This document shows positions 7,960 to 64,000 of a stretch of 64,000 bases of DNA, piece by piece. This DNA is from Cellulosilyticum lentocellum DSM 5427 (GTDB taxonomy: Bacteria > Bacillota > Clostridia > Lachnospirales > Cellulosilyticaceae): the NCBI RefSeq assembly GCF_000178835.2, contig NC_015275.1, forward strand, positions 889,001 through 953,000. The letters run 5' to 3'. The notes beneath the pieces are model-generated. The model was not told the DNA's origin and searched no databases. It saw nothing but the letters and a program-made list of their open reading frames with translations. A program made the position numbers and the translations under genes. Each line of letters starts with the position of its first letter. The stretch's first letter is position 1.

Positions 7960-7984
7960 AGATATTAATCAAATAGACCTTAAA

Positions 7985-8272
7985 AACCTATGAGGGAGAG
8001 ATAAAACTAATCACGAACTTCCAGAGAGCTAGGGGTGGTGGAAACCTAGCAGTAAACGAATTAGACAAATGGACTCCTGAGGGCATAATGAAAAGAGCAA
8101 GTCTCTAAGTATCTTATGACGATACACCTCCGTTACGGGTGAGGAATGTGATGGCATTCTGCATAAGTGCGTATGATTTTTTCATACGAAGCAAGGTGGT
8201 ACCGTGGGCATAGACTAACTATACGCTCATCCTTGATGATTTTTTCATCTAGGATGGGCGTTTTTTATTTGG
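7985..8272 (+). promoter_or_regulatory. Tryptophan T-box leader
   Basis: The region carries the conserved T-box sequence AAGGTGGTACCGTG (8193-8206), the stem-I distal motif AGAGAGCTAGGGGTGGTGG (8021-8039), a candidate specifier triplet TGG at 8070-8072, and a terminator that competes with the antiterminator. Uncharged tRNA-Trp would pair with TGG and with the GGTGG bulge, stabilise the antiterminator and let transcription continue into trpE. The specifier position is read by eye; the trp genes downstream support it strongly. Confidence 0.92.
8224..8270 (+). terminator. T-box attenuator terminator
   Basis: A 16-bp stem starts at CGCTCATCCTTGATGA and closes at TCATCTAGGATGGGCG, followed by TTTTTT. 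It is the off-state hairpin of the trp leader. Confidence 0.9.
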
Positions 8273-21520: not shown

Positions 21521-22774
21521 CTATTTAGTTTTATTTTTACCTACTTTTACAGGCTTTTTCTCAGAAGGCAATGGAGCATCTACAGGAATGGGGTCTAGAT
21601 GAACATCCTTCTGGCTTAATACACGGTCCATATAGCGATTAAGGTTCTTAAGGAGTACAGCGATAATAGGAGAAGCGAAGAACATACCTAGAGGGCCCCA
21701 AAGTGCACCACCTATTAAGATACCTGAGATAATCCAAAATGGACTTAGTCCGATAGAATCGCCTAAGATTTTTGGACCTAATACAAGTCCGTCAAATTGT
21801 TGAAGAAGGAAAATAAAAATACCGACGACAACAGCTGGCATAAAACCAGTAAAAAGTGTAATGATAACAGCAGGAATAGCGCCTAATAGTGGTCCAAAGT
21901 AAGGAATCATATTAAGTACACCTACAATGAAGGACAATAGAATCGCATAAGGATTATCTAGAATAGATAGGCCTACAAAACAAATGGCACCAATAATAAA
22001 GGAATCGATAAATTTACCTACAAAGAATTTAATAAAGATTTCATGTCCTTCTGAAAAGACAGCAATAAGCTTATCAGCTTTTTGACGGCTAAGAAGAGTA
22101 TAGCATAGACGTTTAGTACCATAAGAAAATGACTCTTTTTGCATAAGTACATAAAAAGCGATCACAAGTCCCATAACCCAGTTAAATAAGGAAGAAACAA
22201 TGCTCATAGCTTGTCCCATTAAATTACTTACGATATTTCCAAGAAAATCAGTGTTGAGGTATTTAGCAGGATCAATCATCGTAAAAACTTGAGAAGTATC
22301 TAACTGATAAGGTAAGCCAGAGATACTTTGATTAACGGATTTTTCAAGGGCATTAATTTTCTCTTCTAAGTTATTAGCATAATCAGGTAAGGCCGCAGAA
22401 AGATCTTTAATATTTTCTGTGATTTGTGGCACAAGATAACGGAACATAAGGATGACAGTACCTATAATACAAATGTAAACAGCCACAATTGAAATGCTAC
22501 GAATGGCTTTTTTCTGATTCACAGTAGAAGGTTTAAACCATTTAATAAAATAATTTTCAAAGAAAATCATTATAGGATTAAATAAATAAGCAATAAGTAA
22601 TCCATATAAGATTGGGGCAATAATACTAATAATTCCTTTAAAGAAAGCTAAAATCGAGGGTGCAATATTATCTGTATTAGAAGAAATACGATAAAAAAGA
22701 ATAGACACCACGATGACCATAATAGCGTATAAAGAAACTTTTAAATAAGAATTGTTTTTCCAAAAGTTTTTCAT
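21521..22774 (-). CDS. AI-2E family transporter
   Basis: 417-aa membrane protein with N-terminal spans, a large extracellular or periplasm-type loop (~100-190) and a C-terminal helical half containing IPYFGPLLGAIPAVIITL and the LVLGPKILGDSIGLSP block typical of the AI-2E (YdiK/PerM) family. Members include exporters and Na+(Li+)/H+ antiporters; autoinducer export is proven for few. The substrate is unknown. The reverse-strand start follows GCGGAGGTA. A short charged tail (KKPVKVGKNKTK) ends the protein. Confidence 0.88.
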   Translation of the reverse strand: MKNFWKNNSYLKVSLYAIMVIVVSILFYRISSNTDNIAPSILAFFKGIISIIAPILYGLLIAYLFNPIMIFFENYFIKWFKPSTVNQKKAIRSISIVAVYICIIGTVILMFRYLVPQITENIKDLSAALPDYANNLEEKINALEKSVNQSISGLPYQLDTSQVFTMIDPAKYLNTDFLGNIVSNLMGQAMSIVSSLFNWVMGLVIAFYVLMQKESFSYGTKRLCYTLLSRQKADKLIAVFSEGHEIFIKFFVGKFIDSFIIGAICFVGLSILDNPYAILLSFIVGVLNMIPYFGPLLGAIPAVIITLFTGFMPAVVVGIFIFLLQQFDGLVLGPKILGDSIGLSPFWIISGILIGGALWGPLGMFFASPIIAVLLKNLNRYMDRVLSQKDVHLDPIPVDAPLPSEKKPVKVGKNKTK

Positions 22775-22964: not shown

Positions 22965-22998
22965 ATGTTTTGTCTTAAGAGATAAGGCAGATATAAAT

Positions 22999-23083
22999 GC
23001 GATTGTGGCGGAATTGGCATACGCGCTAGACTAAGGATCTAGTGCCTGTAACGGGCTTGGGGGTTCGAGTCCCCCCAATCGCA
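22999..23083 (+). tRNA. tRNA-Leu (AAG anticodon)
   Basis: 85 bases with acceptor arms GCGATTG / CAATCGC, discriminator A, anticodon stem CTAGA/TCTAG with loop CTAAGGA (anticodon AAG), the long class II variable arm expected of Leu, and the T loop GTTCGAGTC. CCA is not encoded. The adenosine at position 34 would be read as inosine if modified, letting it decode CUN codons. Confidence 0.95.
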
Positions 23084-23087
23084 GTAG

Positions 23088-23197: not shown

Positions 23198-23231
23198 AAT
23201 ATCTGTCCTGAAAATATTAATATTGAAAAAT

Positions 23232-23316
23232 GCGATTGTGGCGGAATTGGCATACGCGCTAGACTAAGGATCTAGTGCCTGTAACGGGCTTGGGGGTTCG
23301 AGTCCCCCCAATCGCA
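23232..23316 (+). tRNA. tRNA-Leu (AAG anticodon), second identical copy
   Basis: All 85 bases match the copy at 22999-23083. Flanks differ outside the promoter, and it has its own terminator. Confidence 0.95.
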
Positions 23317-23324
23317 TTAAGATG

Positions 23325-23362: not shown

Positions 23363-23658
23363 TATACATATGGAATTCTTAATATGAAAATACAAAAGCA
23401 TAAACATTAATGAATAAAAATAATTTTAAGATAAATATACAGAATAAATTATAATATAATGCAAAAATACGCAATTTATAAACAAAATTATAAAAAATAA
23501 TAAGTAAACTAAAAATTTTTTTCTTGTATTTTATTTACTCTTAAAATTAAATATTGTATGATGGTAGAGATAGGAAAAATGCAAGAAAAAATAAGTAAGG
23601 ATTTATTTGTATCTATTTATATAAAAACGTTAAAAAATTTATACTGGAGATGAAGCAG

Positions 23659-25539
23659 ATGAAAACTTGGGAAAAAATGAACCTGCCACAAGAAGTGGAA
23701 AATCTATTAAATGAGAAAGATAATATTATTGTACCGTCATCTAGAGAACAACTTTTAGAGCTTTCGTTAGGTGAAAAATATCAGAAAACCTTTCAAGTTG
23801 CTTATAATGTAAAAGGGAAAGGACCTGTAGTAGAAGCGGATGTAGTACGTTGCAAAAATGGTATATCAGTTAATTATAAAGATATGTACATGAGAAGACG
23901 TGATCCAAACTCAATGGTGATTGGAGATCATAAACCAACAGATAAAAGAAGATATAAAGATGAGTTTGGTATGGATTTTGAAGGCGTTAGAGAAGAAACT
24001 TTCGAATGGCTTAAAGAACAAGATCTTATAGTAATGCCATTTTTAGCAGGTGGCAGCAAAATGGGGTATGAGGCTCTTATGATAGGACCACGCAATGCTG
24101 CTTTCTTTGCTACAGCACTTTCTGATCTTCAAGCTTTTATTCCAGCAGAAGAGATAAGAGATGGTTTCACGCCAAGAGCTATTGTTTATGTAGCACCACC
24201 ATTTAGACATACGCATTTTGATGGTAAACAAGTTGTTGTACATAATCGTTTAGATAACTTACATGAAGTATTTGCATATAACCTTTATCCAGGCCCAAGT
24301 GCTAAAAAGGGTGTTTATAGTGTCCTTTTAGATATCGGTGAAAGAGAAGGATGGGTAACGCTTCATGCTTCAACTGTAAAAGTTATTACGCCATATGAAA
24401 ATGTACTTACTATTATGCACGAAGGTGCTAGTGGCGGTGGTAAGAGTGAGATGGCTGAGCAAATGCATAAAGATGCAGAAGGACGCGTACGTCTTGCAAC
24501 TAACATGGTAACAGGTGACAGCAGCTATGTTAATATTAGTGCAAAATGTGAACTTAGACCAGTAACAGATGATATGGCTATGTGTCATCCAAGTATTCAA
24601 AATGATAGCAAAAAGCTTGTGGTTATTGATGGAGAAGAAGGTTGGTTCCTTCGTGTTAATCATATTACTGAATATGGGACAGACCCTTATTATGAAAAAA
24701 TGTGTATCCATCCTAAGACACCACTTGTGTTCTTAAATATGAATGCAACACCGGATTCAACTTGCTTAATTTGGGAACATACAGTAGATGAAGAACTTGG
24801 AAAACCTTGTCCTAACCCACGCATTATTATGCCTAGAGCTTTTGTGCCAAATGTAGAAGATGGTCCAGCAGAAGTAGATATTCGTAGCTTTGGTGTACGT
24901 GCACCTCTTTGTACAAAAGAAGAACCTACTTATGGTATTATGGGTATGTTCCATATCCTTCCTCCAGCACTTGCTTGGATTTGGCGCCTTGTTGCACCAA
25001 GAGGGCATGCTAACCCAAGTATTCTAGATAGTGAGGGTGGTATGAAGAGTGAAGGTGTAGGATCTTATTGGCCATTTGCTACAGGAAGAAGAGTAGATCA
25101 AGCTAATTTACTATTAGAGCAAATTTTAGCAACACCAGATACAAGATATATTCTTATTCCTAACCAGCATATTGGCGCTTATGAAGTAGGTTTCATGTCT
25201 CAATGGATTGCTCGTGATTACTTAGCAAGACGAGGCAGTGTACAATTTAGAGAAGAGCAATTAATAGAGTCAAGGTGTCCACTTCTAGGCTACTCTCTTG
25301 AAAATTTAAGAGTAGACGGTACACATGTACCAAAAGTATTGCTTCGTACAGAATTACAACCTGAAATAGGAATTGAAGGCTATGATAAAGGAGCCACTAT
25401 TTTAGGTGATTTCTTTAAAGAAGAACTTAAAAAATATTTATCTCCTGACTTAAATCCATTAGGTAGAGAGATTATTGAATGTTGTTTAAATGACGGCACA
25501 ATTGAAGATTATAGAAATCTTATTTCTATTAAATTTTAA
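23659..25539 (+). CDS. DUF4914 family protein, PEP carboxykinase-like P-loop
   Basis: 626 aa from ATG 23659, 10 bases after GGAG; an in-frame ATG at 23650 is only 1 base from it. The protein matches what I know of the DUF4914 family, found in clostridia and other anaerobes. The most telling motif is a P-loop, GASGGGKSEMAEQ (~256-268), near the middle and resembling the kinase loop of PEP carboxykinases, with MHPSIQND- and FLNMNATP-like conserved blocks after it. A nucleotide-dependent carboxykinase or kinase activity is plausible; no substrate is known. It is transcribed alone. Confidence 0.75.
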   Translation: MKTWEKMNLPQEVENLLNEKDNIIVPSSREQLLELSLGEKYQKTFQVAYNVKGKGPVVEADVVRCKNGISVNYKDMYMRRRDPNSMVIGDHKPTDKRRYKDEFGMDFEGVREETFEWLKEQDLIVMPFLAGGSKMGYEALMIGPRNAAFFATALSDLQAFIPAEEIRDGFTPRAIVYVAPPFRHTHFDGKQVVVHNRLDNLHEVFAYNLYPGPSAKKGVYSVLLDIGEREGWVTLHASTVKVITPYENVLTIMHEGASGGGKSEMAEQMHKDAEGRVRLATNMVTGDSSYVNISAKCELRPVTDDMAMCHPSIQNDSKKLVVIDGEEGWFLRVNHITEYGTDPYYEKMCIHPKTPLVFLNMNATPDSTCLIWEHTVDEELGKPCPNPRIIMPRAFVPNVEDGPAEVDIRSFGVRAPLCTKEEPTYGIMGMFHILPPALAWIWRLVAPRGHANPSILDSEGGMKSEGVGSYWPFATGRRVDQANLLLEQILATPDTRYILIPNQHIGAYEVGFMSQWIARDYLARRGSVQFREEQLIESRCPLLGYSLENLRVDGTHVPKVLLRTELQPEIGIEGYDKGATILGDFFKEELKKYLSPDLNPLGREIIECCLNDGTIEDYRNLISIKF

Positions 25540-25604
25540 GTAACAAAAAATTCACAAAATCTTATTTATTCACATATTGTTTACAAATTAGAGGTAAAAT
25601 AGAC

Positions 25605-25797
25605 AAGAAATGATGTTATTCTTATATACGAACGGAACAGTAATCGAATAAACGATTACATATGGAAGTAATGTTACTTTATTCCCCTAAACTCGAAACT
25701 CCCCTAAACACATAAAGTAGCATTATTCATCCAAATAGCAAACCCTTACAAAACTCTATTTTTTACACCGAGTCCCCCAACTTGGTGTATTTTTTTA
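25605..25797 (+). ncRNA. Candidate small RNA with C-rich loops
   Basis: The 226-bp gap after the DUF4914 gene folds by eye into three hairpins. The first is GTAATCG-AATAAA-CGATTAC (25640-25659). The second has a 14-bp stem TAATGTTACTTTAT / ATAAAGTAGCATTA (25669-25725), whose 29-base loop holds CCCCTAAAC twice. The third is a terminator, ACACCGAG-TCCCCC-AACTTGGTGT, with a T run. Unpaired CCCC stretches are the hallmark of Gram-positive sRNAs that pair with Shine-Dalgarno sequences. No good sigma-A promoter was found (only a TAAAAT near 25595), so the 5' end is a guess and it could instead be a long 3' UTR. Confidence 0.45.
25773..25796. other. attL core
   Basis: 24 bp identical to 58532-58555. 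It forms the loop and 3' arm plus T tract of the terminator at 25766-25796, so host-side transcription still ends correctly after insertion. Confidence 0.85.
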
Positions 25798-25872
25798 TGC
25801 GCAAAAATAAAACGTTGTAAAATCAACGGTTTAAGGTGCTTTTAGAAAGGATATTTTTGCTTGTTAAATAGG

Positions 25873-25893
25873 TTTGGACAAAAATTGGACAAA
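25873..25893 (+). promoter_or_regulatory. Possible integrase arm-type sites, left
   Basis: TTTGGACAAAAATTGGACAA holds a directly repeated TTGGACAAAA just beyond the integrase stop, 80 bp from the attL core. Nearly the same doublet lies near attR. Confidence 0.5.
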
Positions 25894-25899
25894 AGATGA

Positions 25900-27030
25900 T
25901 TAAGAACTTAAAAAATTATTATTTTTAATATCAACAATTGTATTATCAAGAACCTTGGCAACTTGCTTGTCAACTTCATTAATCGGTTGCATATAAATAT
26001 TGGTTGTTTCAAGCTTACTATGTCCCATACGATTAGATAATGATTTCATGTTAACTCCTTTGCTAGCAAGTAGCGTTGCATGAAGATGACGTAGATCGTG
26101 GAAGTCTATAACAGGTAGATTGTTATTTTTTAAAATATTAGTGAAGAATGTAGAGAGGCATTGACGGCCTACAGGTTTATTTGTACGAGCAGACCAAAAT
26201 AACTGTTTTGAAAGAGGGATACAATCTAAAGTGCTAATATAATTTTTTATAGCAGCTATAACAAAGTCAGGAGCATAGATATCACGTATAGAACTTTCAG
26301 ACTTAGTTGTAATGTACCCTTCGACAACTTTTCCCTTTTCTGTATACTTACCAAATTGCTTATTGACTCTAATTATGTTATTTTCAAAGTCGATATCATC
26401 GAGGGTGAGTGCCCTAATTTCACTATTACGTAAGCCACAACCAAGAGCGATATAAAAGGCACATTTATGCATATGAGATGGCTTAGTGCTTAAGTTCTCA
26501 TAAATTTCAAGTAGTTTTTTCATTTCATCAACGGTCATTAATTGTCCACGATTTTGATACTTTCTCTTTTGTGGTCTATCAACATACATACAGGGATTTT
26601 TAATGATTAGTTCCCACTTAACAGCCATTTCAAAAGTTTTCTTTAAACAGCTAAGATTATTACTTACAGTACTAGGGGCCAAATCCAATTCAGATAAATG
26701 TGTTACAAATTGTTGGATATGAAGTGGCTTAATGCTAGAAAGTTTTTTGTCGCCAAAGAATGGAAGTAGATGAGTATTATAGGTATTTTTGTAAAATTCA
26801 ACTGTACTGTATTTACAATTAACCTTAACATACTGATCAGTTACAAGCTGGCAAAGCTCATTAAACTTCATATTTTCATTTGTACCTACGTTGCCTCTTT
26901 TTACATCAACTTTGAAAGCTTCATGTGCTTCTTTGGCCTTCTTTTCTGTGCCTTCAAATAGTTTTGTGTAAGGGATGCCATCTTTCATTATACGAAAGCG
27001 CCAAACATTACCATGCAAATCCATGGACAT
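25900..27030 (-). CDS. int: Phage tyrosine integrase
   Basis: 376 aa. It would cut and join attP/attB. An N-terminal arm-binding region (DLHGNVWRFRIMKDG...) is followed by a core-binding SAM-like domain (~60-150) and a catalytic domain with Arg in LGCGLRNSEIRAL, the HxxR box HDLRHLHATLL, and the Tyr in GHSKLETTNIYMQ. It points toward attL and is the outermost phage gene. The start MSMDLHGN has an AGGAGGT site 8 bases upstream. It belongs to the Tn916/phage-type Firmicute integrase group. Confidence 0.96.
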   Translation of the reverse strand: MSMDLHGNVWRFRIMKDGIPYTKLFEGTEKKAKEAHEAFKVDVKRGNVGTNENMKFNELCQLVTDQYVKVNCKYSTVEFYKNTYNTHLLPFFGDKKLSSIKPLHIQQFVTHLSELDLAPSTVSNNLSCLKKTFEMAVKWELIIKNPCMYVDRPQKRKYQNRGQLMTVDEMKKLLEIYENLSTKPSHMHKCAFYIALGCGLRNSEIRALTLDDIDFENNIIRVNKQFGKYTEKGKVVEGYITTKSESSIRDIYAPDFVIAAIKNYISTLDCIPLSKQLFWSARTNKPVGRQCLSTFFTNILKNNNLPVIDFHDLRHLHATLLASKGVNMKSLSNRMGHSKLETTNIYMQPINEVDKQVAKVLDNTIVDIKNNNFLSS

Positions 27031-58531: not shown

Positions 58532-58555
58532 TCCCCCAACTTGGTGTATTTTTTT
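58532..58555. other. attR core
   Basis: 24 bp identical to attL. Here the left arm of the terminator hairpin is missing, so the terminator is not rebuilt on this side. Confidence 0.85.
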
Positions 58556-58603
58556 TGCTCAAAATTTGAGGTTAGGCTAATTATTAATATAGAAATGAAA
58601 TAC

Positions 58604-58645
58604 AAAAAAGGTATTGTACATTTATTATAAGTACAATACCTTTTT
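58604..58645. terminator. Terminator of the zinc-ribbon protein gene
   Basis: A 15-bp stem AAAAAGGTATTGTAC / GTACAATACCTTTTT, able to work on both strands. Confidence 0.85.
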
Positions 58646-58673
58646 ATTTATTAATCTATATAAGACTAATTAA

Positions 58674-59417
58674 CTATTTTTGAATTTCAACGCCTTGTAA
58701 TTTTAAATATTGACCTTCAGTAACAGTAATATAAGTATCTCCTGTTGGGGCATCATTTGTTACGATTTCATCAAATACGCCTCTACTTCCAGAAGTTACT
58801 TCAATATATCCTATACTAGAAGTGAGCATCACTTTATACTCTCCAGCAGGGATATCTGTTCCTACTTTATACATACCATCTTGATATAATCCATTTTCAG
58901 GCACGATACTTGGAGCATCAGCTAAAGCATAAGTTTTACCACCTTGTAATTTTAGATATTCACCATCTTTTACAGTAATATATCGATGGCTGGCAACTGT
59001 ATCATTAGCAATGATGCTATCGAAGCTACCTGTAGAATCAGAAGTGATTTCCATGTAACCCATAGAATCAGCAATAAACAAGTATTCTCCTGCAGGAAGC
59101 TCAGTACCTATTTTATAGGTTCCAGCTTTAATAGCAGGATTTTTATCTTCAGGTTCTGGCGTTAATGCTGGAGTAGTAGTTGCGGTAGTATTCCCTGGAG
59201 TAATAGCTGGATTTTCAGTGTTAGGTTTGTTAGTAGTATCTGAAGATGGTGTATCTTCTGTGGTACCAGCTAAAGCTCCAATTATAAGAATAATAACTAC
59301 ATAAAACCACCATTTTTTATAAATAGGTTGTTTATTTTTTGCACCACATTTTGGACAGGTGGTAGCAGATGAAGCCATTTCTGTAGTACAAGTTTTACAT
59401 TTAATTAATTTACTCAT
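58674..59417 (-). CDS. Membrane-anchored zinc-ribbon protein with duplicated domain
   Basis: 247 aa. N-terminal zinc ribbon (CKTCTTEMASSATTCPKCGAKN), one membrane helix (WWFYVVIILIIGALAG), a Thr/Pro-rich linker (~52-95), and two copies of a ~65-residue beta domain: IKAGTYKIGTELPAGEYLFI ... GEYLKLQGG and QDGMYKVGTDIPAGEYKVML ... GQYLKLQGV. The topology puts the ribbon inside and the duplicated domains outside. Similar proteins occur on many clostridial genomes with no known role. It is host DNA, next to attR. Confidence 0.8.
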   Translation of the reverse strand: MSKLIKCKTCTTEMASSATTCPKCGAKNKQPIYKKWWFYVVIILIIGALAGTTEDTPSSDTTNKPNTENPAITPGNTTATTTPALTPEPEDKNPAIKAGTYKIGTELPAGEYLFIADSMGYMEITSDSTGSFDSIIANDTVASHRYITVKDGEYLKLQGGKTYALADAPSIVPENGLYQDGMYKVGTDIPAGEYKVMLTSSIGYIEVTSGSRGVFDEIVTNDAPTGDTYITVTEGQYLKLQGVEIQK

Positions 59418-59616
59418 AAATTAGTCTCCTTTAGTTAACATAACAACAGGATTATAATATACAATAAAAGATGAAACAAGAAAAAGTAGACAATTATAGG
59501 CATGGTATTAAAAGGAAAAGAGCATAATGCCAAGGAAGTTAAATATATTCTATTGGATAGGTCTTATAAATTACGATATAATCAAAATAAGAGAAAAGGT
59601 AAGAGAGGACTATTTT

Positions 59617-60612
59617 ATGAAGGTGACAATTAATGATGTGGCTCGCGAAGTAGGGGTATCAAAAGCAACAGTATCAAGGGTGCTGTCTAATAATGAACGG
59701 ATTAGTGAAGAAACAAGATTAAAGGTTAAAGAAGTTATTGAACGCTTGGGGTATAAGCCTAATGTGATGGCAAGAAACCTAGCTAGAAATCAAACCAAGA
59801 CTATAGGTGTTATTTTACCTATGGATGCTAGTGTATCCTTTGGTAATCCTATTTTTACTCAAATGATGCAAGGGATTAGTATGTATGCTCAAGAAAAACA
59901 TTATTTTCTAATGTATGCCTTTGGAAAGGAAGAAGAAGAGGAGCATAATATAGATGAATTTAGTCAAAATGGTATTGTAGATGGGATTATTATTTTGAAA
60001 TCAGAGGTAAATGATAAAACAATTAAGAAATTAAGAGAAAGTGGATTTCCTTTTGTAGTTATAGGGCGTCCGGGACGTGAAACATCTGTGCTATGGGTGG
60101 ATAATGATAACTTTGGAGCTACTTATGAAATAGCAGAAGCGATGATTAAGAAGGGACATAAAAAAATTGCTTTTGTAGGAGCAAAGCAGAAATGGACTGT
60201 ATCTAAAGATCGTCTTGAAGGTTATAAAAGAGCGCTAGAAGTTCACAACATATCTTATGAAGAAAAGTTGATTTATCATGGAGAAGCCTTTAATGAGCAA
60301 ACAGGAAAAGAGGCAATGGATTTACTTATAAAAGAATCACCTACAGCCATTATTGCTACGGATGATTTGATAGCAGTAGGCGTAAATGACTATTTAAACA
60401 AAATAGGGAGAGAGGTTAAGGCTTTGGTGGGATTTAACAATACGATGTTAGCAGCTTATCAAAAACCAGCTTTAGCGTCTGTAGAAATCTATGGAGAAAG
60501 ATTGGGGTATGCAGCTGCTAAACTACTAGTAGAACAATTAGAAGGTTATATAAAGGATCATATGCATGCTATTATTGAAACCAAGCTGATAGAACGTGAA
60601 TCTTTTAATTAA
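59617..60612 (+). CDS. LacI-family transcriptional regulator of the glucosidase locus
   Basis: 331 aa from ATG 59617 behind AGAGAGGA; a longer frame upstream has no site. The N-terminal helix-turn-helix (TINDVAREVGVSKATVSRVLSNN) and hinge helix (NVMARNLARNQT) precede a periplasmic-binding-type sensor domain (TIGVILPMDASVSFG ... TAIIATDDLIAVGVNDYL). It lies directly upstream of a GH13 gene with two matching operators, so it probably represses it and the PTS gene until an alpha-glucoside such as maltose appears (MalR-like). Confidence 0.9.
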   Translation: MKVTINDVAREVGVSKATVSRVLSNNERISEETRLKVKEVIERLGYKPNVMARNLARNQTKTIGVILPMDASVSFGNPIFTQMMQGISMYAQEKHYFLMYAFGKEEEEEHNIDEFSQNGIVDGIIILKSEVNDKTIKKLRESGFPFVVIGRPGRETSVLWVDNDNFGATYEIAEAMIKKGHKKIAFVGAKQKWTVSKDRLEGYKRALEVHNISYEEKLIYHGEAFNEQTGKEAMDLLIKESPTAIIATDDLIAVGVNDYLNKIGREVKALVGFNNTMLAAYQKPALASVEIYGERLGYAAAKLLVEQLEGYIKDHMHAIIETKLIERESFN

Positions 60613-60617
60613 TTTAA

Positions 60618-60706
60618 TGAAAACGGTTGCACAAATCGTTTTCTTATGTTAACATAAATAACATAAAAGAAATATTTTTTTAAGCAATCGTGAAACCGGT
60701 TGCACA
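60618..60706. promoter_or_regulatory. Promoter and two LacI-type operators of the GH13 gene
   Basis: TGAAAACGGTTGCACA (60618-60633) and TGAAACCGGTTGCACA (60691-60706) differ in one base. The first covers the -35 of a promoter TTGCAC (60627-60632)-N17-TAACAT (60650-60655); the second ends where the GH13 ribosome site AGGAGG begins. Two sites 73 bp apart could be bridged by a LacI tetramer or bound by two dimers. Confidence 0.8.
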
Positions 60707-60716
60707 GGAGGAAAAA

Positions 60717-62366
60717 ATGAATTGGAGAAAAGAGGCCGTAGGCTATCAAATTTATCCTAGAAGTTTTATGGATTCAAATGGTGATGGCATTGGTGATTTA
60801 CAAGGCATCATTTCTAAATTAGATTATATAAAAGACTTAGGGATTGACGTGATTTGGATTTGTCCTATGTATGAATCACCTAACGACGATAATGGTTATG
60901 ATATTAGTAACTATCAAGGCATTATGAAAGAATTTGGAACCATGGCTGATTTTGATGAACTTTTAAGAAAGGTTCATGAAAAAGGTATGAAGCTTATTAT
61001 TGATCTAGTACTTAATCATACATCAGATGAACATCCTTGGTTCCTAGAATCAAGAGCGTCTAAAGAAAGTAATAAAAGAGATTGGTACATCTGGAGAGAA
61101 GGCAAAGAAGGCAAAGAGCCTAACAACTGGGAAAGTATTTTCCATGGCTCAGCTTGGGAATATGATGAAGCGACAGATGAGTATTTTCTTCATTTATTTA
61201 GTAGAAAACAACCAGACTTAAATTGGGAGAATAAGGAAGTTAGACATGCACTATATGCAATGGTTAATTGGTGGCTAGATAAAGGAATAGATGGCTTTAG
61301 AATAGATGCTATTAGCCATATTAAGAAAGAACCAGGTTTATTAGATATGCCCAATCCAGAAGGACTTCAATATGTTTCATCGTTCGATAAGCATATGAAT
61401 ATAGAAGGAATTCATGATTTTTTAGAGGAGTTAAATAAAGAAACTTTTTCTAAATATGACATTATGACGGTAGGAGAAGCTAATGGCGTAAATGCCGAGG
61501 AAGCTAAGCTATGGGTAGGAGAAAAGAATGGCAAGTTCGATATGGTTTTCCAATTTGAACATCTTGATTTATGGGATACTGAAGGGGAGCAGAAGCTAGA
61601 TGTGTTAGCTTTAAAGAAAGTACTTAGTCGTTGGCAAAACTCTCTTTATAAAGAAGGCTGGAATGCTCTCTTTATAGAAAATCATGATATTGTAAGGGTT
61701 GTTTCTAAATGGGGAGATGATGAGAAATATTGGGCAGAAAGTAGTAAAGCTTTAGCTATGATGTACTTTATGCAACAAGGGACACCTTTTATTTATCAAG
61801 GACAAGAAATTGGGATGACAAATGTTCATTATCCAGAAATCTTCTATTATAACGATATTGCAACCTATAATCGTTATATTAAAAATAGAGAAGAAGGCAT
61901 GTTAAAAGAAGTGGCTTTAAAGCATGAGTGGGCAGCTTCAAGAGATAATGCTAGAACACCTATGCAGTGGGATGGTAGTGAAAAAGGCGGGTTTACCACA
62001 GGAGAACCTTGGCTTGCAATAAATCCTAATGTAAAAGCTATTAATGTAGCAAATCAATTAGAGGACTCACAATCTATTTTAAACTTTTATAAAGACTTGA
62101 TTCGTATTAGAAAAGCAAATTCTACTTTTATAGAAGGAAAGTATGAGTTAGTCATGCCAGAAGACACTCAGCTTTACGCTTATACAAGAACAGATGATCA
62201 TGGCAAGTTCCTTATTATTTGTAATCTAACAGGTGAAGAAGCTCAGTTTACGGCTGACTTTGATTTAGAAGATAGAGAATTACTTTTAAGCAATTATGAA
62301 ATTCAGCAAGAGCATCAGCTGGAAGTAATAAGACCTTATGAAGCAAGACTATATTGTTTAAGCTAG
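60717..62366 (+). CDS. GH13 alpha-glucosidase (oligo-1,6-/maltose-type)
   Basis: 549 aa from ATG 60717, 5 bases after AGGAGG; a GTG 27 bases upstream lies inside an operator. A TIM-barrel GH13 enzyme: WWKEAVGYQIYPRSF-like start (here NWRKEAVGYQIYPRSF), LVLNHTSDEHPWF, nucleophile Asp197 in GFRIDAISHI, acid Glu254 in VGEANG, and Asp324 in ENHDIVR. The segment GDGIGDLQGII is typical of oligo-1,6-glucosidase/MalL. No signal peptide, so it acts in the cytoplasm on sugars imported by the PTS encoded next. Confidence 0.93.
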   Translation: MNWRKEAVGYQIYPRSFMDSNGDGIGDLQGIISKLDYIKDLGIDVIWICPMYESPNDDNGYDISNYQGIMKEFGTMADFDELLRKVHEKGMKLIIDLVLNHTSDEHPWFLESRASKESNKRDWYIWREGKEGKEPNNWESIFHGSAWEYDEATDEYFLHLFSRKQPDLNWENKEVRHALYAMVNWWLDKGIDGFRIDAISHIKKEPGLLDMPNPEGLQYVSSFDKHMNIEGIHDFLEELNKETFSKYDIMTVGEANGVNAEEAKLWVGEKNGKFDMVFQFEHLDLWDTEGEQKLDVLALKKVLSRWQNSLYKEGWNALFIENHDIVRVVSKWGDDEKYWAESSKALAMMYFMQQGTPFIYQGQEIGMTNVHYPEIFYYNDIATYNRYIKNREEGMLKEVALKHEWAASRDNARTPMQWDGSEKGGFTTGEPWLAINPNVKAINVANQLEDSQSILNFYKDLIRIRKANSTFIEGKYELVMPEDTQLYAYTRTDDHGKFLIICNLTGEEAQFTADFDLEDRELLLSNYEIQQEHQLEVIRPYEARLYCLS

Positions 62367-62530
62367 CAGAAATATAAGAGCAGGTAATAAAAAGTAATAA
62401 GCAAAAATATAAGGTAAGAAATAAGAACATAAAAATAAGAGTAGTAAAAGCAGTAGAGAAGCAAAAGAGCTAGAAAAATACTAAGAATAGACTAGAAAGA
62501 GACTAGAAAGAGATAAGAGAGGAAGACAAA
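62367..62530 (+). other. Purine-rich untranslated spacer
   Basis: About 160 bases with almost no C or T on the plus strand, built of short A/G words (AGACTAGAAAGAGACTAGAAAG repeats split as AGACTAGAAAG twice). No hairpin or open frame is seen. It holds the ribosome site AGAGAGGAAG of the next gene. Confidence 0.7.
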
Positions 62531-64000
62531 ATGGAACAAACAGTAAAAAAAACAAAGCTATTTTCATTTGACTTTTGGCAAAAGTTTGGTAAGGCCCTTT
62601 TAGTAGTTATTGCTGTTATGCCAGCAGCAGGTATTATGATCTCACTCGCAAAGCTTTTAGGTATGTATGTGGATGTTAATTTCGTTCAAGTGATTGCAAG
62701 GGTAATGGAGGACATTGGTTGGGCCATTATAGGGAACTTACACATTCTCTTTGCAGTAGCAATAGGGGGATCATGGGCAAAGGAACGTGCAGGAGGGGCA
62801 TTTGCAGCACTTCTAGCTTTTATACTAATTAATCGTATTACAGGTGCTATTTTTGGCGTGACAAGTGCTATGTTGGCAGAAGGAACAGCTACTGTTAATA
62901 GTTTACTTGGGGCACCAATGGCAGTAGGAGATTATTTTACTTCTATTTTGGGTTCACCAGCGCTTAACATGGGTGTATTTGTAGGGATTATTTCAGGTTT
63001 CTTAGGTGCTAATTTATATAATAAATACTATAACTTTGATAAATTACCATCAGCATTAGCGTTTTTTAATGGAAAACGTTTTGTACCTTTTGTAGTTATT
63101 CTTGGTTCAACGGTAACAGCTATGATATTATCTATAGTATGGCCATTTATTCAAGGAAGCTTAAATAGCTTTGGTGCATGGATTGCAAGTTCACAAGATA
63201 CAGCACCAGTACTCGCTCCATTTATTTATGGCTGTTTAGAAAGACTTTTATTACCATTCGGACTTCATCATATGTTAACTGTGCCAATGAACTATACAGA
63301 GCTTGGTGGTGTTTATACAATGATTACTGGTTCTGCGGCAGGGCAAATTGTAGCAGGACAAGACCCATTATGGCTTGCATGGGTAACAGACCTTAACAAC
63401 TTAAAAGCGGCTGGCGATATGACAGCTTATAACACACTCTTAACATCTATTACACCAGCTCGTTTTAAAGTAGGTCAAGTGATTCTTTCATCAGCTTCTC
63501 TTATCGGTATTGCTTTTGCTATGTATCGTAATGTAGATAAAGAGAAGAAAGCAAAATACAAAACGATTTTCCTATCAGCAGCATTAGCGGTATTTTTAAC
63601 AGGTGTTTCTGAACCTATTGAATTCATGTTTATGTTTGTTTCACCTATTTTATATGTAGCTTATGCTATTATTACAGGAATTGGTTTTGCATTAGCGGAT
63701 GTTTTAAATCTAAGAATTCATGCCTTTGGTTTCATTGAATTTTTAACAAGAGTACCAATGATGGTAAATGCAGGTATTGGACTTGATATTGTTAACTTTT
63801 TACTCACATGTGTTGCATTCTTTGGTATCAATTTTGGTATATTTAATATTCTTATTAAGAAATTCAATATTGCAACACCAGGGCGTAATGGCAACTACAT
63901 TGACGAGGAAGAACCAGTAGTAGCTCAGGAAGCGAAAGTTACGACGCAAACAAGTAAGGCAAAGGAGTCAGTAGATGGGCAAGTAATGGCTATTATCGAG
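62531..64000 (+). CDS. PTS alpha-glucoside/maltose transporter EIIC(B), 3' end outside the window
   Basis: 490 codons are open to the window edge. The EIIC domain is clear: FGKALLVVIAVMPAAGIMISL, NLHILFAVAIGGSWAKERAGGAFAALLAF, PFGLHHMLTVPMNYTELGG and LTGVSEPIEFMFMFVSPILY with the conserved GVxEPIEF. A linker (EEEPVVAQEAKVTTQTSKA) then leads toward what is probably an EIIB domain. It imports and phosphorylates a glucoside (maltose type, MalX/MalT-like). Transcribed after the GH13 gene, 164 bp away, probably in one operon. Confidence 0.92.
   Translation, partial: MEQTVKKTKLFSFDFWQKFGKALLVVIAVMPAAGIMISLAKLLGMYVDVNFVQVIARVMEDIGWAIIGNLHILFAVAIGGSWAKERAGGAFAALLAFILINRITGAIFGVTSAMLAEGTATVNSLLGAPMAVGDYFTSILGSPALNMGVFVGIISGFLGANLYNKYYNFDKLPSALAFFNGKRFVPFVVILGSTVTAMILSIVWPFIQGSLNSFGAWIASSQDTAPVLAPFIYGCLERLLLPFGLHHMLTVPMNYTELGGVYTMITGSAAGQIVAGQDPLWLAWVTDLNNLKAAGDMTAYNTLLTSITPARFKVGQVILSSASLIGIAFAMYRNVDKEKKAKYKTIFLSAALAVFLTGVSEPIEFMFMFVSPILYVAYAIITGIGFALADVLNLRIHAFGFIEFLTRVPMMVNAGIGLDIVNFLLTCVAFFGINFGIFNILIKKFNIATPGRNGNYIDEEEPVVAQEAKVTTQTSKAKESVDGQVMAIIE

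Follow-up and report, generated by a model that had tools for sequence, protein, structure and literature searches.

A conserved C-rich small RNA of Cellulosilyticum lentocellum and its relatives, with a predicted Pho-type promoter and a prophage in its terminator

What is encoded in the short intergenic region of Cellulosilyticum lentocellum DSM 5427 that is wedged between a DUF4914 gene (23650-25539, PF16260) and a prophage, and to which signal does it respond? We addressed this question within a stretch of 64,000 nucleotides (nt), hereinafter the window, that corresponds to bases 889001-953000 of the single 4,714,237-base (4.71 Mb) contig of this genome; in the NCBI taxonomy, the organism belongs to the Cellulosilyticaceae within the Lachnospirales. 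A reading of this DNA made from the letters alone (hereinafter the sequence-only reading) had placed a regulatory small RNA (sRNA) with C-rich loops at positions 25605-25797. The RNA gene is real, conserved and not assigned to any Rfam family. In addition, it appears to carry a Pho-type promoter of the same build as that of pstS, a feature absent from the sequence-only reading. We favor, with moderate confidence, the interpretation that this gene encodes a trans-acting C-rich sRNA that would be induced by phosphate starvation via a PhoP/PhoB-type regulator and would pair with messenger RNAs (mRNAs).

The predicted gene comprises ~167 nt (25630-25796; here and below, coordinates refer to the forward strand unless indicated otherwise) and matches covariance model R1 with 173 bits; apart from a fragment at the far end of the prophage, it is present in a single copy in its own genome. 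In a DNA search, 17 of 59 genomes, the source genome included, produced matches; 14 carry the whole RNA and the remaining three (G013, G020 and G032) the terminator alone. A covariance model derived from the 14 sequences retrieved the same 14 genomes among the 246 sampled from the order, all of them in one family (14 of the 24 sampled members, own genome included, compared with 0 of the other 222), a distribution that is narrower than the spread across the Lachnospirales originally envisaged. Among 391 genomes of the class, the source genome was the sole match. Searches of this size, which evaluate few candidates in each genome and apply stricter filters, could miss distant relatives of the RNA. 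Deeper scoring of the 10 family members without a match yielded a single weak candidate (G022; E 3.69, 19.4 bits), which was rejected given that it lies antisense within a reading frame. The named relatives that carry a conserved block near the 3' end of the RNA are Cellulosilyticum species, Sporanaerobium hydrogeniformans, Niameybacter massiliensis and uncultured Clostridia. One of the 13 exact matches to a 20-base piece of this block comes from a metagenome-assembled genome of Berkelbacteria (L055) and was discarded because the respective stretch contains no other part of the RNA. When the whole window was compared to Rfam 15 at the gathering cut-offs, only a T-box and two transfer RNAs (tRNAs) were detected, whereas the RNA itself was unmatched; for the region 25530-25900, with the threshold relaxed to E<=10, the only match was a small nucleolar RNA at chance level (E 6.8).

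The RNA is predicted to be highly structured. The minimum free energy (MFE) of the segment 25605-25800 is -40.2 kcal/mol, compared with -22.8 +/- 3.6 kcal/mol for 200 dinucleotide shuffles, none of which was as good (z -4.8), and the respective fold contains all three hairpins that had been proposed from the letters alone, including the 29-base loop with the repeated C-rich sequence and the C-rich terminator loop. Hairpin 1 occupies 25640-25659 and hairpin 2 occupies 25663-25733, with its C-rich loop at 25683-25711, in which CCCCTAAAC occurs at 25684-25692 (motif 1) and again at 25701-25709 (motif 2). The intrinsic terminator (25764-25796) has a stem of 10 pairs, which is capped by a C-rich loop of 6 bases and followed by a tract of 7 T. 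This fold is common to the 14 sequences, with the exception of L004, in which two other hairpins replace hairpin 1. Compensatory change in the stems, the absence of which had been named as grounds for abandoning the prediction, is readily apparent. When both arms of hairpin 1 are taken from one species, they pair with a mean energy of -7.15 kcal/mol; when the arms are exchanged among species, the mean is -2.82 kcal/mol, and none of 20,000 permutations did as well. The lower stem of hairpin 2 shows -4.54 compared with -2.73 kcal/mol, a result matched by 15 of 20,000 permutations. These figures flatter the structure because the species are related, although the test takes them as independent, and because the arms of hairpin 1 were picked from each sequence's own fold. 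A direct example from hairpin 1, to which this caveat does not apply, is GTAATCG/CGATTAC in L001 versus GTGGTTGC/GCAACCAC in L005. On the raw MAFFT alignment, in which hairpin 1 is poorly aligned and shows only 49% column identity, the RNAalifold consensus includes 17 pairs, of which 6 are doubly changed; 5 of these are in the terminator because the alignment program fails to align hairpin 1.

In contrast to the changing stems, the C-rich stretches barely vary, so that the second anticipated ground for rejection, poor conservation of the CCCC loops, does not apply either. The core of motif 1, CCCCTAAA, is present in all 14 sequences and is fully unpaired in 11 of the 14 MFE folds; the same core in motif 2 is present in 13, L007 retaining CCCC and lacking three bases. 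The CCCC of motif 2 and that of the terminator loop are unpaired in each of the 14 folds. In the seven genomes outside the genus of the window, additional pairing between the two C motifs is predicted. The sequence GAACGGAA at the predicted 5' end (25630-25637), within which GAACGG is invariant in 14 of 14, is fully unpaired in 9 folds and partly paired in 5. The near-invariant 3' block, AATAGCAAACCCTTACAAAACTCTATTTT (25734-25762; 96% mean pairwise column identity over the 14 sequences), contains a third C-rich motif, and its first 27 bases are fully unpaired in 10 of the 14 folds. This block is nearly constant in 14 genomes from four genera, beyond the needs of loose pairing with Shine-Dalgarno sequences, and its ends, AAUAG and CUAUU, could pair to form a small hairpin. 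If the RNA presents several sites for pairing or binding, constant open stretches and changing stems would be the expected outcome. A coding function, in which the RNA would serve as the mRNA of a short peptide (M/L-LLYSPK...), is extremely improbable: an ATG/TTG frame in the stem of hairpin 2 does read LLYSPK in several genomes, but, as judged by eye, it is shifted in two of the 14 (L011 and L015) and its end varies among genomes, and the conserved letters double as those of the pairing and of the C motifs.

The region upstream of the RNA points to a likely signal, by virtue of a promoter arrangement shared with pstS. A Pho-type box, TTCACA-N5-TTTACA, which consists of direct repeats with an 11-bp period, is located at 25569-25585, and is followed by an extended -10 element, TGTTATTCT (25614-25622), within which TATTCT starts 31 bases past the box (N31). 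All 14 homologous promoters contain TTHAYA-N5-TTHAYA (11 of them in the strict TTHACA form) followed by TGnTAnnnT, with TAnnnT at exactly N31 and then 6-7 bases to GAACGG. Given this box, the -10 element at N31 and the distance to GAACGG, the most likely transcription start is position 25630 or one immediately upstream of it. Thus, an RNA gene indeed lies within the originally proposed extent, but positions 25605-25629 belong to the putative promoter. Because this promoter and the intrinsic terminator are both conserved, we predict a stand-alone transcript. An earlier assignment of TAAAAT, nine bases after the box, as the -10 element was abandoned because the g9 genomes do not retain it, whereas all 14 genomes have TGnTAnnnT at N31.

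The same geometry is found at the phosphate transport genes of the same genome. The pst cluster encompasses genes for a PhoP/PhoR-like pair, comprising a response regulator (C1:1302134-1302823) and a histidine kinase, followed by two pstS genes, pstC, pstA, pstB and phoU; between the kinase gene and the first pstS, a gene resembling those for rRNA methyltransferases lies on the opposite strand. The promoter of pstS2 reads TTAACA-N5-TTAACA-N31-TAATAT and that of pstS1 TTAACA-N5-TTAACC-N31-TATCAT, with a one-letter mismatch in the box (spacing counted by hand). In relatives, a search for the pstC family yielded 30 loci, and in 17 of them we examined the 1.5 kb that precede pstC: the strict box occurs exactly once in each of 9 loci, and in 0 of 17 on the reverse strand; as read from the printed rows, TAnnnT follows at N31 in 7 of the 9 and at N32 in 2. 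Among the 8 loci lacking the strict box, a one-mismatch box is present in L096 and L104, the latter with TACGAT at N31. Eleven genomes have both the sRNA and a pstC match that exceeds the cut-off, and in 9 of these 11 the strict box is found at a pst operon; the pst promoter of G010, a family member without the sRNA, also has the box and the N31 spacing. Among the 24 strict boxes in the source genome, just two, those of the sRNA and of pstS2, are followed by TAnnnT at N31; a rough estimate from base composition is that ~1 such match would be expected by chance. Therefore, the weight of the promoter evidence appears to lie in the identity of these two boxes and in conservation, not in the box alone. 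On this evidence, the sRNA is probably controlled by phosphate. The abandoned TAAAAT pattern has 4 matches in the source genome (3 for reversed controls), namely, the sRNA, pstS2, a ugp-like operon and a bifunctional aldehyde/alcohol dehydrogenase gene; the boxes of the latter two have no -10 element at N31. The box before the operon (G000:C1:231760; L124:2903-7102) precedes ugpA/E/B-like genes and a glycerophosphodiesterase gene; ugp and glycerophosphodiesterase genes are typical members of Pho regulons.

Several observations, on the side of the regulator and on that of the targets, weigh against the phosphate-controlled, mRNA-pairing sRNA that we favor. With respect to the regulator, the strict box is absent from 8 of the 17 relatives' pst loci and is not by itself enriched in the source genome (24 occurrences compared with 20 of the reversed pattern), where two more boxes are followed by TAnnnT at N32 (L192 and L194, the latter inside a long reading frame). 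The response regulator adjoining pst scores 227.8 bits on the PhoB model, for which the cut-off is 296.2, and ranks third among 25 regulators, slightly behind the first two; none of the 25 reaches the cut-off. The adjoining kinase has PnpS as its best NCBIfam match (365.6 bits, below the cut-off of 400), and its second match, WalK (306.2 bits, cut-off 725), scores above PhoR (296.1 bits, cut-off 334.2). Hence the same C-rich sRNA might be controlled by another OmpR-family regulator, such as a WalR-like one, rather than by phosphate. WalR sites are likewise 11-bp direct repeats (TGTWAH-N5-TGTWAH), a pattern to which TTWACA conforms when reverse-complemented, so that a WalR-type site read on the other strand resembles the box; furthermore, the PhoB model is matched by 25 regulators of the genome at E <= 1e-30. 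Nevertheless, we consider such control fairly unlikely: several copies of the box read TTCACA, which does not fit the W of the WalR site, and the other promoters in which the N31 geometry was found belong to pstS1, pstS2 and the relatives' pst operons.

With respect to the targets, the sequence-only reading held that the loop would pair with AGGGG-type ribosome-binding sites, said to be common in the window. The counts do not bear out this abundance: AGGGG-N3-10-ATG occurs 17 times compared with 12.0 +/- 3.5 by chance, and 11 of 100 shuffles reach 17, whereas AGGAG-N3-10-ATG occurs 50 times compared with 20.0 +/- 3.8. The loop complement TTTAGGGG occurs four times in the window, twice as the antisense of the RNA itself, with 2.3 occurrences expected. 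In the 14 sRNA-bearing genomes, the seed match GTTTAGGGG-N2-13-ATG occurs 78 times (75 without the sRNA antisense) compared with 66 for the reversed control, and in six family genomes without the sRNA, 16 times compared with 15; many of these matches open very short frames only. Start sites complementary to the seed are not conserved between genera in a protein comparison that covered 74 of the 78 matches (two antisense matches and two overlapping duplicates being set aside; L069 and L075, without a centered match, were not scored), and the sole related set of proteins, from three g9 genomes, has the site, as judged by eye, seemingly in the last codons of the upstream frame. At 75 gene starts, drawn from the window and from three further stretches, duplex energies show no clear advantage over those of shuffled segments, and the best start for the loop was matched in 4 of 40 shuffles. 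Thus, of the proposal of a new regulator of the C-rich type, the conserved, structured RNA with exposed C motifs holds up well, whereas seed counts, conservation and duplex energies offer no positive evidence of pairing with ribosome-binding sites. Given that these tests are confined to one 9-base seed and to a minor portion of the genome, they may leave room for a few true targets.

The empty target searches are also what would be expected if the RNA mainly bound a protein or acted as a sponge for another RNA, through its C-rich and 29-nt blocks rather than at ribosome-binding sites, and the same applies to the constancy of the 29-nt block near the 3' end and of GAACGG at the 5' end, which exceeds what loose pairing with Shine-Dalgarno sequences calls for. 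Against this, we count a study on Staphylococcus aureus, itself a low-GC Gram-positive bacterium, in which the sRNA IsrR is described as acting on its targets through C-rich single-stranded regions (PMC9410917), and we regard a binder or sponge as unlikely.

The gene neighborhood bears on a further alternative, a cis-acting leader or attenuator of the downstream gene. In 7 of 13 relatives (L003, L005, L007, L009, L011, L014 and L015), the RNA is followed by mutually similar, co-oriented genes of an AI-2E-type transporter family, as judged from the one that was searched (L007; PF01594, AI-2E_transport). The downstream gene differs in the other 6 relatives (an ABC-2-type membrane protein in three, of which one was searched, and unrelated genes in three), which makes a leader of one conserved gene unlikely, and in the window, the prophage lies downstream, yet conservation of the RNA, terminator included, persists; judging by these downstream genes, we consider a leader very unlikely. 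The window has its own AI-2E transporter gene on the other strand (21521-22774), before two tandem tRNA-Leu (AAG) genes (22998-23084 and 23231-23317) that are close to the RNA. DNA that matches these tRNA-Leu stretches is likewise situated in the vicinity of the RNA in L005, L011, L014 and L015, four of the relatives. The T-box leader of the window is located at 7981-8237 (RF00230, 102 bits).

The prophage on the other side of the RNA gene is inserted in the terminator itself and restores it, as had been suggested from the letters alone. The 24-bp core TCCCCCAACTTGGTGTATTTTTTT is found, without a mismatch, at 25773-25796 (the left attachment site, attL) and at 58532-58555 (the right site, attR), and spans the last base of the 5' arm of the terminator, the loop, the 3' arm and the T tract. 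Between the two cores are genes for TerL and the portal protein, as well as a tyrosine integrase encoded on the reverse strand (25900-27030; PF00589, E 1.2e-27). The terminator is complete at attL, and the RNA gene is intact after integration, whereas attR retains the core half only. It is well known that phages integrate where RNA genes end, such as those for tRNAs and transfer-messenger RNA; the present case is similar in that the core covers the end of an RNA gene that stays intact, and differs in that the gene is that of a presumed regulatory sRNA, with the terminator as the core. A search for the empty site failed to match the right flank of attR (58540-64000) in the loci of 12 relatives (3.4-8 kb, some with little DNA past the RNA) and in the unrelated L055, or the segment 58441-64000 in the 1.5-kb flanks of 13 relatives. 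All matches of the integrase in the phage collection are below 60% identity, and among viral contigs, the core was found only in IMGVR_UViG_650716026_000001, apparently the same prophage. Besides the core, this record (L202, L203) includes the sRNA's 3' block, so that the end of a host RNA is filed there as viral sequence.

In Gram-positive bacteria, sRNAs such as RsaE, LhrC and the csRNAs pair with Shine-Dalgarno sequences through exposed C-rich loops, and RyhB is known for its iron-sparing role. The RNA described here resembles RsaE/RoxS, LhrC and FsrA, which direct C-rich motifs against Shine-Dalgarno regions, a mode of pairing that would apply here by analogy; it differs from them in having no Rfam family at the gathering score, in its single copy and in its occurrence in another bacterial family. 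LhrC has a two-component activator, LisRK, according to PMC4132741. IsrR, compared here by description, differs in its control by Fur and iron and in its known targets, whereas here the promoter contains a Pho-type box. Promoters of the Pho regulon contain two 11-nt direct repeat units according to PMC4415409, in which a table row lists PhoB and SgrR for the Escherichia coli sRNA gene sgrS; the box described here has the same two 11-nt repeats and is common with pst, but its form is TTHAYA, it precedes an sRNA gene, and its regulator is a putative PhoP/PhoB-type one. Among the literature matches listed, which comprised titles, the beginnings of abstracts and few subscription papers, there was no PhoP-controlled sRNA of the Firmicutes, and for Cellulosilyticum lentocellum together with small RNA, the texts searched included only a survey of tick microbiota.

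Under the mechanism that we propose, low phosphate would cause a PhoP/PhoB-type response regulator to activate the sRNA's own promoter, and the resulting ~167-nt stand-alone transcript would end at its intrinsic terminator. The hairpins would keep the C-rich stretches open, namely, the two CCCCUAAAC in the loop of hairpin 2, ACCCUUAC in the 3' block and CCCCC in the terminator loop, for pairing with G-rich stretches of mRNAs, most likely in their Shine-Dalgarno regions, and the mRNAs so targeted would be those whose products a starving cell should cease making. In this scheme, the gene, its structure and conservation, the promoter geometry in common with pstS and the position of the prophage core are read from the sequence, whereas PhoP activation, the response to low phosphate, mRNA pairing, repression and any particular target are inferences. 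More tentatively, and with slightly less than even confidence, we suggest a phosphate-sparing function, in which PhoP would co-induce pst and the RNA, and at least four C-rich stretches would shut down phosphate-costly or dispensable genes, which would make it the phosphate equivalent of RyhB, FsrA and IsrR, RNAs that spare iron. In any case, a conserved RNA gene, together with a signal predicted for it, is now known in a lineage of anaerobes that includes Cellulosilyticum, Sporanaerobium, Niameybacter and uncultured relatives. Should the proposed mechanism prove true, phosphate would join iron as a starvation signal that is read by C-rich sRNAs of Gram-positive bacteria.
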